64,000 bases of DNA from Paraflavitalea devenefica (GTDB lineage Bacteria > Bacteroidota > Bacteroidia > Chitinophagales > Chitinophagaceae): the NCBI RefSeq assembly GCF_011759375.1, contig NZ_JAARML010000006.1, positions 310,001-374,000 of the forward strand. The letters run 5' to 3'. The first letter of the stretch is position 1, and every line of letters begins with the position of its first letter. This document shows positions 11,382-59,620 of this stretch, piece after piece. The notes beneath the pieces were generated by a model. That model searched no databases and was not told where the DNA came from. It saw only the letters and a list, made by a program, of their open reading frames with translations. Position numbers and translations under genes: made by a program.

Positions 11382-11455
11382 TCGGGACGACTGGATTCGA
11401 ACCAGCGACCCCTACGTCCCGAACGTAGTGCGCTACCGGGCTGCGCTACGTCCCG
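11382..11455 (-). tRNA. tRNA-Pro (anticodon CGG)
   Basis: On the minus strand all four arms are present. The acceptor is CGGGACG/CGTCCCG with discriminator A. The anticodon stem is CTACG/CGTAG with loop TTCGGGA, giving anticodon CGG. The T-arm is CTGG-TTCGAAT-CCAG. CCA is not encoded. It has its own consensus promoter and terminator and is transcribed alone. Confidence 0.95.
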
Positions 11456-39318: not shown

Positions 39319-39348
39319 CCGCAGCGTCCCCTCCGGGAGACACTGCGG
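39319..39348. repeat. CCGCAG palindromic intergenic repeat, copy 1
   Basis: A palindrome with arms ccgcagcgtc and gaCaCTGCGG (one mismatch) around ccctccggga. Copies occur at 41749-41778 (identical) and 57844-57873 (variant gag/ctc), and a longer relative at 41820-41872. Confidence 0.65.
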
Positions 39349-41748: not shown

Positions 41749-41872
41749 CCGCAGCGTCCCCTCCGGGAGACACTGCGGGGAAGAGATTTATGGCGCAGTT
41801 GGTGAGCCACCTGGATTCTCCGCAGTGTCTCTTCCAGCCAGGCTTTTGTGTGCAGGTGGAAGGACGCTGCGG
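41749..41872. repeat. CCGCAG palindromic repeats, two copies
   Basis: Copy 41749-41778 is identical over the palindrome to the one at 39319. The second (41820-41872) has longer arms, ccgcagtgtctcttcca against tggaaggacgctgcgg, and a T-run on its right side. They fill the gap between the epimerase and ALDH genes. Confidence 0.65.
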
Positions 41873-47723: not shown

Positions 47724-47797
47724 AGAATACAGAATTCAGAATCCAGCATACAGAATATGAGAAATACAAAAAGCTGTTCCGGTACAGAACAGCTTTT
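47724..47797 (-). terminator. Terminator hairpin plus GAATACAG-type repeat between DUF4295 gene and ftsY
   Basis: A perfect stem aaaagctgttc/gaacagctttt (47769-47779 with 47787-47797) follows the DUF4295 gene by 24 bases. Next to it, 47724-47758 carries gaatacagaattcagaatcc-type words like those beside hppD. Confidence 0.7.
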
Positions 47798-52286: not shown

Positions 52287-52464
52287 CCGGGTTTCGGGTT
52301 TCGGGTTTCGGGTTTTGTGTTTCGGGTTCTTTGGATGTAACAACTTACTTCTTTTTAAAATAGCTGCTATCGCCAGGGCAACTCCGGTGATCAGCCCGTT
52401 TAAAGCATACAAAATTTCCCAAAGTGCAGCAACAACCCAAAACTCCAAACACGAAACCCGAAAC
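52287..52464. repeat. Inverted GGGTTTCG-repeat element after ppx
   Basis: It starts two bases after the ppx stop. The left arm repeats gggtttc four times and ends in gggttctttgg. The right arm (52429-52464) is its inverted copy (acaacccaaaactcc and acacgaaacccgaaac). The core encodes, on the minus strand, a hydrophobic run LYALNGLITGVALAIAAILK preceded by an ATG at 52448. This could be a tiny membrane protein, but the tail runs into the repeat, so it is weak. Confidence 0.65.
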
Positions 52465-53525: not shown

Positions 53526-56111
53526 ATGAGAAAACCGCTCCTGTTGCTGGCGCTGATCGCCAGTTCTTACCTGCTATACGCACAGCAAACTGTTTCCGGA
53601 ACTATTAAAGACGCCAAGACCAAAGAGCCCCTCCCGGGCGCCTCCATCACGATCAAAGGAACCAACCAGGGAACCACTTCCTCCGCTACCGGCACTTTCA
53701 CCATCAGTATTCAAAAAGGAGATATACTTGTTGTCCGCTACATCGGTTATGCCGTTTCTGAAGTAACGGTGGGCGACCAGGCAACACTGGCTATCGAACT
53801 ATCGCCCCAATCGGGCAACCTGCAGGAGATAACGATCGTGGGCAGCCGCCGGCTGGGCCGCACCGCCACCGAAACGCCGGTACCCATTGACGTGATCGAT
53901 ATTAAAAGCATTGCCCGTCAAACCGGCCGGTTCGATGTGAATAATATGCTGCAGTTTGCCACCCCCTCTTTCAATGCCAATAAGCAATCGGGCTCCGACG
54001 GCGCCGACCATATTGACCCGGCCACGATCCGTGGCCTCGGCCCTGACCAGACCCTGGTACTGATCAACGGGAAAAGAAGGCATCAATCGTCGCTCATCAA
54101 CCTCTTTGGCACGAGGGGCCGCGGTAATACGGGCACCGACCTGAACGCCATCCCTGCTGCCGCCATTGAACGGGTGGAAGTACTGCGCGATGGCGCCTCT
54201 GCCCAATATGGCTCTGATGCCATTGCCGGCGTGGTGAACGTGATCCTGAAGTCGTCCGTGAATGAATTCTCTGCCAATATCAATACGGGGGTATATGATG
54301 CCAAGAAGTACCGCCGCGACCGGAATTATGATGGGGAGAGCTTCCAGCTCAATGCCAATTATGGTACCCGCATCGGTGAGAAAGGGTTTATCAATTTCAC
54401 CGCCGATTACCTCACGAATGCCAAGACCAACCGGGTGCCGCCTCCCGGCGCCGTTACGTATCGCCGTGAGTTTGGCGATGCTTCTGCTGAAAACTACAGC
54501 GCCCTCTTCAATAGTGAGATACCTGTTTCGGAAAATACTTCCGTGTATGCTTTCGGGGGCTATACCCATCGCTTTACGGATGCCTATGCCTGGTCGCGCG
54601 ACCCGGATGATGACCGGAATGTGAAGGAGATCTATCCCAATGGATTTGACCCGCGTATTCAATCGGCTATTGATGATAATTCCATTTCCGTAGGCGTACG
54701 CACGGTACACAACGGCTGGAATATTGACCTGAATAATACGTACGGCAAGAATAAGATGCACTATTATGTGGATGGCACGCTGAATGCTACCCTGCTGGCC
54801 AAGTCGCCCACACATTTCGATGCCGGTGGCTTCTGGTTCTCCCAGAATACCACGGGCATTACTTTCTCCAAACCTTTTGATGTGGCCGAAGGCCTCAACG
54901 TAGCGTTCGGCGCTGAATACCGCACCGACCGCTATGCTATTTTCGCCGGCGAAGAAGGCTCCTGGCAAAATTATGGCGTGATCGATACCCTGATCGATAA
55001 CCGGATCGTGAAGTATGATGTGTTGCAAAGGCCGGCCGGCTCACAGGGCTTCCCCGGTTTCCAGCCCAGGAATGAAGTGAATGCCAGTCGCACCAATTTT
55101 GGCAGTTATGCAGATGTGGAACTGGATGTGACGAAGGCCTTATTGGTGTCAGGCGCTGTGCGCTATGAAAAGTACAGCGATTTTGGCGGCACCCTGAATG
55201 GTAAGCTGGCCACCCGCATCAAGGTAGCGCCCGGCTTTAACCTGCGCGCTTCCGTGAGCACCGGCTTCCGCGCGCCTTCCCTGCAACAGACTTATTTCAA
55301 TACGATCTATACCAATTTTGAACAAGGCGTGCCCATTGAGATCCTGCTGGCCAATAACCTCAGCACAGTGACCCGCACACTGGGTATACCGCCACTCACC
55401 GAAGAGAAGTCGGTGAACCTGAGCGCCGGTTTCACGGCCAAACCCGTGAACGGCCTTACGATCACGGTAGACGGTTACCTGATCAATGTGAAAGACCGCA
55501 TTGTACTGACCGGCACGTTCGACCAGGATGATCCTGATATCGGCTCCGACCTGGCCGCCCTGAATGTAGGCGCCGCCAATTTCTTTACAAATGCGATTGA
55601 CTCGCGCAATATCGGCCTGGATGTGATCGTCACGCACAGCGCGCCGCTGGGCGATGGCCGGTTGAATACTTCCTTCGCCGCCAATTTTAATAAGCTAACT
55701 ATTGAAGACATTCATACGAGTCCCAAGTTGGTGGGCAAGGAAGAGAATTACCTCAGCGCGCGGGAACGCTCTTTCATTATCGCTTCTGCGCCCAAAAGCA
55801 AGATGAACCTTACGGTGGATTATAGCACCAACAAGTTCAGCGCTACTGCCCGCCTGGTACGTTTTGGTGAAGTGACCCTGCTGGGCTATGATGACCTGCC
55901 CAATGTGTATGACCCGAAGATCACAACCGACCTGACGGTGGGTTATCGTTTTTCGAGGAATGTGGGCCTTTATGTGGGTGTGGACAACCTGTTTAATGTA
56001 TACCCCGATGAGCAGGACCAGGAGAATACGGAAGAAGGCGGGCTGTGGGATTCGGTGCAGATGAATTTTGGGGGACGGCATTATTTTGCGCGGTTGAGTT
56101 TTACATTTTGA
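53526..56111 (+). CDS. TonB-dependent receptor with carboxypeptidase-like N-domain
   Basis: The product has 861 residues with a signal peptide ending LLYA-QQ (about 20). Residues 22-110 are a carboxypeptidase-regulatory-like domain (VSGTIKDAKTKEPLPGASIT). Next comes a TonB-box-like stretch EITIVGSR. The plug domain (about 115-245) includes IRGLGPDQTLVLINGKRRH and VEVLRDGASAQYGSDAIAGV. A 22-strand barrel follows and ends RLSFTF. It takes up a large substrate across the outer membrane using TonB energy. No SusD partner follows, so it belongs to the siderophore/other group rather than a glycan SusCD pair. The ligand is unknown. Confidence 0.94.
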   Translation: MRKPLLLLALIASSYLLYAQQTVSGTIKDAKTKEPLPGASITIKGTNQGTTSSATGTFTISIQKGDILVVRYIGYAVSEVTVGDQATLAIELSPQSGNLQEITIVGSRRLGRTATETPVPIDVIDIKSIARQTGRFDVNNMLQFATPSFNANKQSGSDGADHIDPATIRGLGPDQTLVLINGKRRHQSSLINLFGTRGRGNTGTDLNAIPAAAIERVEVLRDGASAQYGSDAIAGVVNVILKSSVNEFSANINTGVYDAKKYRRDRNYDGESFQLNANYGTRIGEKGFINFTADYLTNAKTNRVPPPGAVTYRREFGDASAENYSALFNSEIPVSENTSVYAFGGYTHRFTDAYAWSRDPDDDRNVKEIYPNGFDPRIQSAIDDNSISVGVRTVHNGWNIDLNNTYGKNKMHYYVDGTLNATLLAKSPTHFDAGGFWFSQNTTGITFSKPFDVAEGLNVAFGAEYRTDRYAIFAGEEGSWQNYGVIDTLIDNRIVKYDVLQRPAGSQGFPGFQPRNEVNASRTNFGSYADVELDVTKALLVSGAVRYEKYSDFGGTLNGKLATRIKVAPGFNLRASVSTGFRAPSLQQTYFNTIYTNFEQGVPIEILLANNLSTVTRTLGIPPLTEEKSVNLSAGFTAKPVNGLTITVDGYLINVKDRIVLTGTFDQDDPDIGSDLAALNVGAANFFTNAIDSRNIGLDVIVTHSAPLGDGRLNTSFAANFNKLTIEDIHTSPKLVGKEENYLSARERSFIIASAPKSKMNLTVDYSTNKFSATARLVRFGEVTLLGYDDLPNVYDPKITTDLTVGYRFSRNVGLYVGVDNLFNVYPDEQDQENTEEGGLWDSVQMNFGGRHYFARLSFTF

Positions 56112-56115
56112 TAAC

Positions 56116-56218
56116 ACTCGCTCGCCTCCGGCGAGTGAGGCTATTGGCAAGCCTCCGGCTTGCAAGAACAAGCCGGAGGCTTGTAAATACCCCTCACCAG
56201 CGGGACGCTGGCGAGTGA
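56116..56218. repeat. Cluster of hairpins after the TonB receptor gene
   Basis: Three adjacent palindromes occur: CACTCGC...GCGAGTG (56116-56138), a nested pair caagcctccggcttg/caagccggaggcttg (56148-56162 and 56169-56183), and CCAGCGGGACGCTGG (about 56199-56213). The last two recur, with changes on both arms, at 57920-57963. Confidence 0.7.
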
Positions 56219-56230
56219 ATACAGATTCCG

Positions 56231-56238
56231 TACTTTTG
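56231..56238 (+). promoter_or_regulatory. -7 box of the ALDH7 gene
   Basis: TACTTTTG, 20 bases before the ATG at 56259. It lies directly after the two-hairpin module. Confidence 0.6.
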
Positions 56239-56258
56239 CCGTCTTAACAAAAGAACGT

Positions 56259-57782
56259 ATGGATTTTCTTGCTTCGCTCAAAATACAAGGTAATAATGCC
56301 GGGGTGTCTACCGGCGCCACCTGGATCAATAGCTCCGGAAAGGCTATTGAATCTTATTCTCCGGTAGATGGGAAACTGATTGGCACGGTGCAAACTGCTG
56401 ACGCTGCCAGTTATGAAGCCGTTATTGCCAAGGCACAGGAAGCGTTCCTGGCCTGGCGGCAATGGCCTGCCCCCAAGAGAGGCGAGATCGTGCGCCAGAT
56501 CGGGGAAGCCCTCCGGCAATATAAAGAGCCGCTGGGCAAACTGGTGTCTTATGAAATGGGCAAGAGCCTGCAGGAGGGTTATGGAGAAGTACAGGAGATG
56601 ATCGATATCTGTGATTTCGCCGTAGGACTCTCCCGCCAGTTGCATGGCCTCACGATGCACAGTGAGCGCCCGGCCCACCGCATGTATGAGCAATGGCATC
56701 CACTGGGTATTGTGGGCATTATTTCCGCCTTCAATTTCCCCGTAGCCGTGTGGAGCTGGAATACGATGCTGGCCTGGGTATGCGGCAATGTATGCGTGTG
56801 GAAGCCTTCTGAAAAGACACCGTTGTGCGCGGTAGCCTGTCAGCATATTGTAGCCGAAGTATTCGCTAAAAATAATGTACCGGAAGGTGTGTGCGGACTG
56901 ATCGTGGGTAACCGCGATGCCGGGGAATGGATGGCCGCCGATACCCGCATACCACTGGTATCTGCCACCGGCTCCACCCGTATGGGCAAGGCCGTAGGGG
57001 CTGCCGTAGGCGCGCGCCTTGGGAAGGCCCTGCTGGAACTGGGCGGTAATAATGCGATTATTATTTCCAAAGATGCCGACCTGGACATTGCCGTCCGGGG
57101 CGCTATTTTCGGGGCGGTAGGTACTGCCGGGCAACGCTGCACTACTACCCGCCGCCTGATCATCCAGGAAGACGTATACGATACGGTCAAGAATAAACTG
57201 GTGGGCGCCTACCAACAACTGAGCATCGGCGACCCGCTGGATGAGAAGAACCATGTAGGTCCGCTGATTGATAAAGACGCTGTGCGCCTCTACTCAGCCT
57301 CCATTGAAGCCTGTAAGAAAGAAGGCGGCCAATTCATTGTGGAAGGCGGCGTACTGGAAGGGAATGGTTATGAAAGCGGTTGTTATGTGAAACCCTGTAT
57401 TGCCGAAGCGCAACCGGGTTTTGCCATTGTGCAGCATGAAACGTTTGCCCCCATTTTGTACCTGCTGAAGTATAAGACGCTCCATGAAGCCATTGCTATC
57501 CAGAACGGGGTGCCCCAGGGGCTTTCCTCCGCTATTATGACCCTCAACCTGCGGGAGGCGGAACAGTTCCTTTCGGCTGCCGGCAGCGATTGCGGCATCG
57601 CCAATGTGAATATCGGCACTTCCGGCGCTGAGATCGGCGGCGCTTTTGGCGGGGAGAAAGAAACCGGCGGTGGACGCGAAAGCGGCAGCGATGCGTGGAA
57701 GGCGTATATGCGGAGGCAGACGAATACGATCAATTATTCGGCTCAATTGCCACTGGCACAGGGGATTAAGTTTGATTTGTAG
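56259..57782 (+). CDS. ALDH7-family aldehyde dehydrogenase (aminoadipate semialdehyde type)
   Basis: This 507-residue aldehyde dehydrogenase of the antiquitin/ALDH7 group has GIVGIISAFNFPVAVWSWN in the cofactor cleft and LLELGGNNAII with the general-base Glu. GTAGQRCTTTRRL carries the nucleophile Cys, and the C-terminal SGAEIGGAFGGEKETGGGRE is followed by GSDAWKAYMRRQT. ALDH7 enzymes oxidise 2-aminoadipate semialdehyde in lysine breakdown; other aldehydes are possible. It is a single gene between two repeat-rich intergenic regions. Confidence 0.92.
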   Translation: MDFLASLKIQGNNAGVSTGATWINSSGKAIESYSPVDGKLIGTVQTADAASYEAVIAKAQEAFLAWRQWPAPKRGEIVRQIGEALRQYKEPLGKLVSYEMGKSLQEGYGEVQEMIDICDFAVGLSRQLHGLTMHSERPAHRMYEQWHPLGIVGIISAFNFPVAVWSWNTMLAWVCGNVCVWKPSEKTPLCAVACQHIVAEVFAKNNVPEGVCGLIVGNRDAGEWMAADTRIPLVSATGSTRMGKAVGAAVGARLGKALLELGGNNAIIISKDADLDIAVRGAIFGAVGTAGQRCTTTRRLIIQEDVYDTVKNKLVGAYQQLSIGDPLDEKNHVGPLIDKDAVRLYSASIEACKKEGGQFIVEGGVLEGNGYESGCYVKPCIAEAQPGFAIVQHETFAPILYLLKYKTLHEAIAIQNGVPQGLSSAIMTLNLREAEQFLSAAGSDCGIANVNIGTSGAEIGGAFGGEKETGGGRESGSDAWKAYMRRQTNTINYSAQLPLAQGIKFDL

Positions 57783-57969
57783 ATAGCGAGTGGTAAATGG
57801 CGAGTGGCGAGTGGGCTTTTGCTTGGATAGCCCGGATCGGAAGCCGCAGAGTCCCCTTCGGGAGACTCTGCGGGGAATATAAGTGGTAAATGGCGAGTGG
57901 GCTTTTGCTTCGATAGCAGCAAAGCCAGAGGCTTTGAAATAGGCGTCACCAGCCAGAGGCTGGCGACTG
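57783..57969. repeat. Repeat-rich region between ALDH7 and OmpA genes
   Basis: The word gtggtaaatggcgagtgg with gggcttttgctt occurs twice (about 57790-57828 and 57882-57918). Between the copies is the CCGCAG palindrome (57844-57873). Then come the hairpins caaagccagaggctttg (57920-57936) and ccagccagaggctgg (57949-57963), matching the layout at 56169-56213. Confidence 0.7.
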
Positions 57970-58027
57970 GATACTTTTCCCCTATACTTTTTTGTCGTCC
58001 AATTCGTTAATAGTTGTTGGAAATCTA

Positions 58028-59491
58028 ATGTCGTTTATGAAAAAATTGATTACGCTGCTGTGCTTACTGGTGGTTGCGGGTACTGGTTTTGCCCAACTCA
58101 GGGTGGCTATCCTGGGCGGCCCCCACTCCTCCTCGGTGAAAGAAACCAATAGTTTGCCCGGGTGGACAACCGATGTAGAACCCTTCTACGCCAACCGGGG
58201 CGGTTTTAATGCCGGTTTCCTGGCAGAGATTCCCCTCGACGCCTCCGGCCGGTTATATCTTCAGCCAGGACTTTTCTATATGTCGAAGGGCCGGAAATAC
58301 CAGCGGTTCAATGATACCACAGTGATCCAGACCGACACGCTTTCCGTGAAATCGAATTTCTTTACGAATTATATTGATCTTCCCCTGAACCTGACCTTAA
58401 AGCTGCCCCTGGGCAAGAAAAGCAAGTTCTTTTTGAGCGCAGGCCCTTATATCAGTTTGTTTTACAATGGCAAAAGCAGCCAGGAAACGGTGGTAGCCGT
58501 TGGGGATTCTGTCCTTAAGTTTGATAAAACAGAAGATGATCTCGAGGTGGGTAAAGCCACAAATAAGGCCAAAACCTTCGATTATGGCATTAATGGCCGC
58601 GCCGGTTTTGAGCTGGGCGGTGTGATCCTCTCCGGCTTTTTCAGCCAGGGACTGGGGAATTTCTTCCAGCCCGATTATGACGCCACGTTTAAACACAAAG
58701 TGATTGGCGCTTCGGTAGGCTTCTGGCTCAATAAAGGTCCCGCCCTGGCCCCCAAAAAGCCCAAAGACAGGGATAAAGATGGTATTCCCGATGCAGAAGA
58801 TGGCTGCCCCACCCTGCCCGGTACCGCCCTTTCCAAAGGCTGCCCGGATAAAGATGGGGATGGAATTCCCGATAATGTAGACAAGTGTGCCGATGTGGCC
58901 GGTGTAGTCGCCTATAAGGGCTGCCCCATCCCCGATACGGATAAAGACGGTGTGAATGATCCCGACGATAAATGTCCGAATGAAGCAGGCCCTGCCTCCA
59001 ATAATGGTTGTCCGCTGCCCAAACCTGAACCGGACACCGATGGAGATGGTGTGATCGACTCGGCAGACAAATGTCCCACCGAATCGGGTAAACGTGAAAA
59101 TAATGGCTGCCCGGTGCCGCCTGTTATCCAGCAGGAAGTGATCGAAAAGGTGAATTATGCCGCCCGCAATATCCTCTTTACGAAGGGAAGCGATAAGCTG
59201 GCCGCCAGCTCTTACAAAGCGCTGGACGAGGTAACCGCCATCCTGCAGAAAGAACCTTCCCTGCGCCTGGTGATTGACGGCTATACCGATAATACGGGAC
59301 AAGCCGCCACCAACCTGCTACTGTCGCAAAAACGCGCCGATGCGGTGCAAAAATACCTGACCGATAAGGGTATAGCGGCCAGCCGGTTGAACGCCACAGG
59401 CCATGGACAGGCCAACCCCATTGCCCCCAATACGACCGAAGACGGGCGCAATAAGAACCGGCGGGTGGAACTGAAACTGGAAAGGCAATAA
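58028..59491 (+). CDS. OmpA-family outer-membrane protein with thrombospondin type-3 repeats
   Basis: The product has 487 residues with a signal peptide ending GTGFA-QL. Residues 22-235 are an outer-membrane beta-barrel (PorT-like style: QPGLFYMSKGRKYQ, SAGPYISLFYNGK, NGRAGFELGGVI). Residues about 250-370 carry four to five calcium-binding type-3 repeats (DKDGIPDAEDGCP, DGDGIPDNVDKC, DKDGVNDPDDKC, DGDGVIDSADKC). Residues 375-487 are an OmpA peptidoglycan-binding domain (LVIDGYTDNTGQAATNLLLS and NKNRRVELKLERQ). It links the outer membrane to the wall. ATG 58037 is an alternative start; the frame from 57992 is too long for the signal. Confidence 0.93.
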   Translation: MSFMKKLITLLCLLVVAGTGFAQLRVAILGGPHSSSVKETNSLPGWTTDVEPFYANRGGFNAGFLAEIPLDASGRLYLQPGLFYMSKGRKYQRFNDTTVIQTDTLSVKSNFFTNYIDLPLNLTLKLPLGKKSKFFLSAGPYISLFYNGKSSQETVVAVGDSVLKFDKTEDDLEVGKATNKAKTFDYGINGRAGFELGGVILSGFFSQGLGNFFQPDYDATFKHKVIGASVGFWLNKGPALAPKKPKDRDKDGIPDAEDGCPTLPGTALSKGCPDKDGDGIPDNVDKCADVAGVVAYKGCPIPDTDKDGVNDPDDKCPNEAGPASNNGCPLPKPEPDTDGDGVIDSADKCPTESGKRENNGCPVPPVIQQEVIEKVNYAARNILFTKGSDKLAASSYKALDEVTAILQKEPSLRLVIDGYTDNTGQAATNLLLSQKRADAVQKYLTDKGIAASRLNATGHGQANPIAPNTTEDGRNKNRRVELKLERQ

Positions 59492-59577: not shown

Positions 59578-59620
59578 AGTTTCGGGTTTCGGGTTTGGGG
59601 TTTCGGGTTCTTTGGTGCGG
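59578..59620. repeat. Single GGGTTTCG-repeat arm after the OmpA gene
   Basis: It repeats tttcggg three times and ends gggttctttgg, as in the left arm of the element after ppx. No inverted partner is seen within the intergenic region. Confidence 0.55.

Follow-up and report, generated by a model that had tools for sequence, protein, structure and literature searches.

Two-hairpin repeats of Paraflavitalea devenefica as probable atypical REP-type elements

REP-associated tyrosine transposases (RAYTs, also called TnpA_REP) are HUH transposases of the Y1 type, and the biochemical work on them covered here (parts of PMC8266576) uses the single-hairpin, GTAG-marked repetitive extragenic palindromic (REP) sequences of gammaproteobacteria. 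Parts of PMC8266576 report that the Escherichia coli enzyme binds and cuts single-stranded REP, that GTAG matters, and that repairing the conserved stem mismatches harms activity. In Bacteroidetes, parts of PMC6006769 describe TnpA_REP of subclass 2.6 (RAYT group 5) as flanked by atypical, weaker secondary structures without GT[AG]G. Here, we analyse two intergenic two-hairpin modules in a 64,000-nucleotide stretch of the genome of Paraflavitalea devenefica (8.73 Mb, 21 contigs), namely contig NZ_JAARML010000006.1, positions 310,001 to 374,000 (G000:C6:310001-374000; hereafter the window). Copy 1 lies between a TonB receptor gene and an aldehyde dehydrogenase gene, and copy 2 between the latter and an OmpA gene.

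From the sequences compared below, we infer that these modules are very probably an atypical REP or bacterial interspersed mosaic element (BIME), that is, an element without a gene of its own that a RAYT moves. This reading draws on a repeat family with covarying stems and near-fixed unpaired features, on its absence from the corresponding spacers of congeners, and on units of the same build beside the RAYT genes of relatives. The two copies of the window are most likely insertions between the three genes, with no sign of a task for those genes.

A repeat family with covarying stems

Each unit is about 50 nt long and consists of hairpin 1, a linker containing AATA and hairpin 2 (Table 1). The preliminary description of this DNA had pointed to two similar modules with equal spacing and order, and the two copies indeed align in register without a gap. 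Its hairpins were quoted correctly, while five nucleotides between the A/T linker and CACCAGC had been omitted (CCCCT at 56190-56194, GGCGT at 57942-57946). It had also left unnoticed that copy 1 is a four-hairpin element, as indicated by its inverted partner unit; this paired form is an imperfect inverted repeat with CACTCGC...GCGAGTG as its outer parts. In both copies the hairpin 2 stem contains a single A·C mismatch near its base, which reads G·T on the opposite strand. The TACTTTTG-like stretch mentioned downstream of the module does exist and lies outside it.

A 20-nt pattern of hairpin 2, allowing up to 3 mismatches, was found at 30 places in the genome, versus 0 for a reversed-pattern control. 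These 30 units align without gaps over 57 columns (alignment A1) and were used to build a covariance model, R1. The best 150 of 4693 candidates were scored with it, and copy numbers are accordingly lower bounds: at least 48 matches at E ≤1 and at least 44 at 47 bits or more, the latter over at least 37 sites. Both window copies reach E-values of ~1e-16, being themselves among the 30 training sequences. Thus the two intergenic regions first described are real but understate the family, and the genome search with a covariance model that had been proposed for them found further copies, so that the possibility of there being none fell away. The short patterns AAATACACCAGC and GGNGTCACCAGC, tried as family probes, gave 7 and 7 places and were uninformative.

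A head-to-head pair of strong units was observed at 7 of the 37 sites and one strong unit at the other 30; the layout of copy 1 with two strong units therefore recurs at 6 or more other sites. As judged by open reading frames (ORFs) predicted with a purpose-written coding-score gene finder, 33 of the 37 sites are free of ORFs; the remaining 4 overlap with the end of one. The 33 free sites comprise 27 between tandem, 4 between convergent and 2 between divergent genes. In the 27 tandem-gene spacers, 14 units run along the genes, 11 are opposed and 2 are undecided (the orientation count covered 34 of the 37 sites and excluded the ORF-overlapping L080, L088 and L093). At many sites, an ORF end is only some dozens of bases away. 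At L068, a predicted ORF (474-1527) enters the unit and seemingly stops at the TAG within AAATAG, a stop codon that the gene may thus owe to the insertion.

The stems covary. In the 30 aligned units, 99.4% of 480 stem cells are paired, and 6 of the 16 pairs show changes on both sides (45 cells), a level reached by 0 of 500 shuffles; when the partner was slid by 1-3 columns, pairing dropped to 22-45% with 0-4 double-changed cells. Together with the number of strong copies, these values bear out the earlier claim of a conserved structure. The arms of hairpin 1 occur in ten combinations and are imperfect in 2 of the 30 units. None of the 480 cells is a G·T pair, which favours a structure maintained at the DNA level, since RNA would tolerate G·T. 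Template-switch repair of the arms could explain this absence without selection, but it would be expected to erase the A·C mismatch also.

By contrast with the variable stem letters, the unpaired features are near-fixed: AATA is present in 30/30 units, the loops read GGA or AGA in 29/30 and 30/30, and the A·C mismatch is found in 29/30. The constancy of AATA and of hairpin 1 is independent of the hairpin 2 pattern by which the units had been picked. Three-nucleotide loops as such are unremarkable in this genome: hairpins with a 3-nt loop and a stem of at least 7 numbered 47 in a 438-kb sample, versus 113 in five simulated sets (~23 each).

Table 1. Positions of the repeat units and of a neighbouring hairpin in the window (R1 scores in bits)
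Feature	Position	Strand	Description
Copy 1, complete	56112..56220	.	Head-to-head unit pair, BIME-like, four hairpins; R1 matches to both units
Copy 1, left unit	56112..56167	-	R1 60.0 bits
Copy 1, right unit	56164..56220	+	First module of the preliminary description; R1 77.8 bits; alignment A1
Hairpin 1, copy 1 right unit	56168..56184	+	ACAAGCC-GGA-GGCTTGT; loop GGA
Linker AATA, copy 1 right unit	56186..56189	+	Invariant in 30/30 aligned units
Hairpin 2, copy 1 right unit	56193..56215	+	CTCACCAGCG-GGA-CGCTGGCGAG; A·C mismatch 56196/56212; loop GGA
Copy 2, one unit	57916..57972	+	Second module of the preliminary description; R1 78.3 bits
Hairpin 1, copy 2	57920..57936	+	CAAAGCC-AGA-GGCTTTG; loop AGA
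Linker AATA, copy 2	57938..57941	+	Alignment A1
Hairpin 2, copy 2	57945..57967	+	GTCACCAGCC-AGA-GGCTGGCGAC; A·C mismatch 57948/57964; loop AGA
Hairpin of a separate dispersed repeat	57844..57873	.	CCGCAGAGTC...GACTCTGCGG; precedes copy 2, not part of the unit

Units beside transposase genes

Units of the same build adjoin RAYT genes in relatives. This is illustrated by genome G068, in which two units 574 bp apart bracket the gene for a 168-aa RAYT (L099; C3:205868-206371) whose protein contains NHFH, YIHLNPVRAG and PF01797. In genome G002, one of two RAYT genes is bracketed by units (L279); L279 and L187 of Pseudoflavitalea rhizosphaerae are one and the same locus and count as one example, not two. 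Dispersed copies of the unit are also present in both G068 and G002, with at least 38 R1 matches in the latter. On the protein side, the best solved chain is 4er8, TnpArep (E 3e-7). The NCBIfam model NF047646 for REP-associated tyrosine transposases (cut-off 80), run for three of the RAYT loci, gave 98.3 bits for L099 and 108.3 for L009 of the P. devenefica genome, and 73.6, below the cut-off, for L010 of the same genome. In a comparison confined to motifs, subclass 2.6 has NH[LIV]H, WQ and YIH[QN]NP, against which L099 reads NHFH, WQ, YIHLNP; L009 reads NHVH, WT, YTHNNP; and L010 reads NHLH, WQ, YIHENP.

For a wider survey, 80 RAYT loci (410 kb), the best of 506 relatives, were fetched by protein only, using an alignment of three RAYTs. 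Nearly all are from Bacteroidota and a few are labelled otherwise (L255, Chlorobiota). The tblastn matches supplied the gene ends, with 2990 as the common end in the R1 count for loci not individually listed. A scan for hairpin-AATA-hairpin proved too strict (19 hits), and covariance models were used instead. R1 found 31 matches at E ≤0.01, of which 27, in 16 of the 80 loci, are no more than 250 bp from the RAYT match; hairpin 2 points outwards in 23 of these 27 (14 downstream on the plus strand, 9 upstream on the minus strand).

A wider model, R2, was built from 39 R1 matches at E ≤0.02 in the RAYT loci. It gave 91 matches at E ≤0.01 over the 80 loci, a count that omits 15 weaker rows and 7 rows of L270, L271 and L279; 78 of the 91 lie within 300 bp of the gene, 56 of them facing outwards. 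A unit within this distance was present at 32 of the 80 loci, and on both sides in 22. Fourteen of the 32 positive loci had contributed nothing to R2; of the 31 matches in these loci, 19 face outwards. In comparison, the 30 family loci that score highest with PF01797 (96-125 bits vs 27-30 for the RAYTs), whose proteins were classified only by that score, contained a single R2 match (E 0.0012).

The 39 RAYT-side units also covary, with double changes in 16 of 16 pairs (203 cells) and 93.6% of cells paired. Their covariation score is 0.758, compared to 0.164 after shuffling and 0.044-0.092 after sliding, in an alignment fitted to the structure, which favours the score. The linker contains ATA in 33 of the 39 units, and the A·C mismatch is present in 31.

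The P. devenefica genome itself contains RAYT-like genes at C4:190543 (L009/L270), C1:1201308 (L010/L278) and C6:237066 (L282), as well as an IS200-like gene at C2:339815 (L008), in whose fetched flanks no R1 match was found. At L009, head-to-head four-hairpin elements at 1206-1303 and 1988-2085 bracket the RAYT gene; they have AATA-type linkers and unrelated stems. R2 gave 12 matches at E ≤1e-6 in 438 kb of this genome, namely 6 of the window family, 3 around L009 and 3 others, with 2 more weak ones; over the whole genome it gave at least 61 matches at E ≤0.01 (best 150 of 937 candidates scored). The mover of the window subfamily may be one of the genome's own RAYTs acting in trans, or a RAYT since lost.

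All 5 genus genomes contain a single strong match to the L010-type RAYT (L278, L272-L275). Given that 2 of the 5 have no R1 unit, this enzyme alone does not predict repeats, and it is perhaps a settled, domesticated enzyme. A hairpin-AAATAGG-hairpin arrangement, visible by eye at about 495-560 of L010, ~860 bp before the RAYT gene, is not reached by R1 or R2.

Distribution among relatives and competing explanations

The three genes flanking the modules (55000-59400) occur in the same TonB receptor, aldehyde dehydrogenase, OmpA order in all 5 genus genomes, and the TACTTTTG-like stretch upstream of the aldehyde dehydrogenase gene is conserved in 5/5. The module is absent from both spacers in the 4 other genomes, whose spacers contain other sequence; those of G085 and G148 have 7-mer arrays between the aldehyde dehydrogenase and OmpA genes. 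The module therefore does not act as a standing regulatory RNA for these genes, which the 4 congeners carry without it in either spacer. At E ≤0.001, R1 matches number 44 in P. devenefica (G000), 39 in G148, 6 in G085 and 0 in both G147 and G149. In a family sample of 147 genomes, own genome included, with counts as lower bounds from the best 38 matches per genome, R1 at E 0.001 matched 5 genomes and R2 at E 1e-4 matched 19.

For two congeners, 18 unit sites (12 of the 39 in G148 and all 6 in G085) were compared with the 37 of P. devenefica, and 2 of the 18 have flanks in common with one of its sites. At C1:971099, the flanks align well with G085 6471078, and hairpin 1 reads GTTAGCC/GGCTAAC in the former and GCTAGCC/GGCTAGC in the latter, one pair having changed on both arms. 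C4:271696 and G148 C87:13506 have common flanks but large divergence, and here the two copies were possibly inserted separately. In G085, three units (L108, L112, L116) combine a normal hairpin 1 and AAATAG.CGTCA with a hairpin of the TCCCG...CGGGA type in place of hairpin 2 and look chimaeric.

In the mechanism we propose, a RAYT would recognise the unit as folded single-stranded DNA, bind, cut and move it, and so disperse it into intergenic DNA, where two units may stand head to head as a BIME. It would most likely read the unpaired features, that is AATA, the loops and, in most lineages, the mismatch. The stems would be needed merely as stems, and for this reason their letters would drift in compensated pairs. 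Cleavage by a RAYT and strand transfer of the unit are the function predicted from these sequences. The units share with REPs that they are short and palindromic, multi-copy, intergenic and found in head-to-head pairs, and in relatives they flank RAYT genes.

Several observations weigh against this REP-type reading. The canonical REP mark is lacking: neither GTAG nor GTGG appears in the conserved columns of alignments A1 and A3. The window subfamily flanks none of the RAYTs found in its own genome (L009, L010, L282). The L009 flanks give three R2 matches (43.9-46.1 bits) with other stems, one of which was in the R2 training set; the fetched flanks of L010 give no R1 match and no R2 match at E ≤1; and L282 is bracketed by a different hairpin, of the CCGCAGAGTC type. 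In the survey, 48 of the 80 RAYT loci had no unit near the gene with R2 at E ≤0.01, and the three-RAYT query included the G068 RAYT, which had itself been found through its units. A PF01797 gene is present in 107 of the 147 family genomes vs an R2 match in 19, although PF01797 also catches other Y1 enzymes. Nor do all units have the A·C mismatch: 8 of the 39 RAYT-side units are without it, and a G-C pair takes its place in both units at the RAYT of G068; moreover, the constancy of hairpin 2, of its loop and of the mismatch is partly built in, because the P. devenefica units were picked by their hairpin 2 pattern. Finally, not every copy is recent, as indicated by the 2 of 18 relatives' sites that coincide with a unit of P. 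devenefica.

The preliminary description had offered either a DNA cruciform or RNA at the end of the previous gene. The DNA half of this proposal is favoured, with the difference that folded single-stranded DNA recognised by a transposase would take the place of a cruciform. A conserved RNA element at the 3' ends of upstream mRNAs, acting as a terminator or stability element, would fit the stable RNA folding of the hairpins (-22.9 to -28.0 kcal/mol for each unit, whichever strand is taken) and the proximity of many sites to ORF ends, and the compensated change in the orthologous G085 copy suggests that the structure may matter after insertion. Yet the equivalent spacers of 4 congeners lack the module, units in tandem-gene spacers occur in both orientations, and G·T cells are missing. 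Besides, none of the 5 terminator-like sites (hairpin plus T-run) in 56050-58100 falls at a module, and a scan of the window at Rfam gathering thresholds gives only a tRNA (11382-11455) and nothing at the modules. We therefore consider an RNA role very improbable. Hardly any credence is due to a miniature inverted-repeat transposable element (MITE) of an ordinary DDE insertion sequence: the paired form is an imperfect inverted repeat, and its outer CACTCGC...GCGAGTG could serve as the terminal inverted repeats, but most sites have only one strong unit, no direct duplications were seen by eye beside paired copies, and units of the same build adjoin HUH transposase genes.

Two further possibilities were considered. 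The host could have adopted the repeats, for example to bind proteins or to mark domain borders, and have retained them on that account, which is compatible with a RAYT origin; parts of PMC2817692 report that known REPs bind host proteins, and the in-place change on both arms at C1:971099 agrees with such use. We regard it as improbable, given that match numbers from 44 down to 0 in five congeners hardly suggest a needed site and that template-switch correction of a hairpin yields the same change without selection. Alternatively, the unit might be a transposon reduced to its two ends, an idea we hold to be unlikely. Hairpins 1 and 2 would then be left and right end hairpins as in IS200/IS605, separated by only AATA and a few bases, one RAYT dimer would read both, and ~50 nt would move as folded single-stranded DNA. 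Each copy would keep its arms matched, whether through selection for mobility or for use by the host or through template-switch repair of the hairpin, in line with the lack of G·T cells and with the orthologous copy in which both arms changed.

Neighbouring repeats and known systems

Other repeats surround the modules. The hairpin family CCGCAG[AC]GTC...GACTCTGCGG, to which the hairpin preceding copy 2 belongs, also occurs at 39319-39348 and 41749-41778 of the window, with 8 matches in the 438-kb sample, and hairpins of this type bracket the RAYT-like gene at G000:C6:237066 (L282). A 38-nt direct repeat, 87% alike, at 57794-57831 and 57880-57917 consists of TGGCGAG-type 7-mers followed by GGGCTTTTGCTTSGATAGC, and its TTTGCTTCGAT part recurs in L055. 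Tandem arrays of 7-mers are found at 15953-15983/15993-16023, 25510-25539/25672-25705, 47724-47757, 52288-52328 and 59579-59609. Some are inverted pairs and potential long hairpins, the first two pairs being reverse complements with 0 and 1 changes, and no other period is as frequent as 7 among the TRF rows of the 438-kb sample (23 of 80).

We found no description of the two-hairpin unit in the literature searched, which included parts of PMC6006769, PMC3733652 and PMC8266576, and no Bacteroidetes names in the parts of PMC2817692 covered. A defined GTAG-less two-hairpin unit beside RAYT genes in several Bacteroidota families provides a concrete substrate for testing how RAYTs find and cut DNA, and the covariance model lets such repeats be annotated rather than mistaken for regulatory RNA.

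Among described systems, the REP/BIME of E. coli, as presented in parts of PMC8266576, are likewise short imperfect palindromes with a conserved in-stem mismatch, form mosaics and adjoin a RAYT gene; unlike the present unit, with two hairpins, AATA between them and no GTAG, they have one hairpin preceded by GTAG. IS200/IS605 elements share a Y1 HUH enzyme and irregular end hairpins read as single-stranded DNA (parts of PMC8266576), whereas the unit has no gene inside and, as noted above, R1 found nothing in the fetched flanks of the IS200-like gene of P. devenefica. The CGTC-tagged REPs, reported also from Bacteroidetes, are palindromic and dispersed, and many P. devenefica units start hairpin 2 with CGTC. 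However, as far as parts of PMC3733652 describe them, their CGTC is unpaired, their loops span 4-5 nt and they have no known dedicated transposase, whereas the P. devenefica units have 3-nt loops and such units stand beside RAYT genes. Membership in that class was rejected: here GTC pairs with GAC and becomes CTC/GAG in 4 of 30 units (columns 30/52 hold 26 G-C and 4 C-G).

The closest counterpart is TnpA_REP subclass 2.6, which agrees in phylum, in a REP-type HUH transposase with flanking structures and copies elsewhere, and in the absence of GT[AG]G (parts of PMC6006769). Judged from its sequence, the unit fits the place of the structures flanking those genes. The published text, in the parts compared, gives no architecture for them, and the comparison is one of text description in which overlap is possible; the unit described here is defined by two hairpins, an AATA linker, RGA loops and, mostly, an A·C mismatch.

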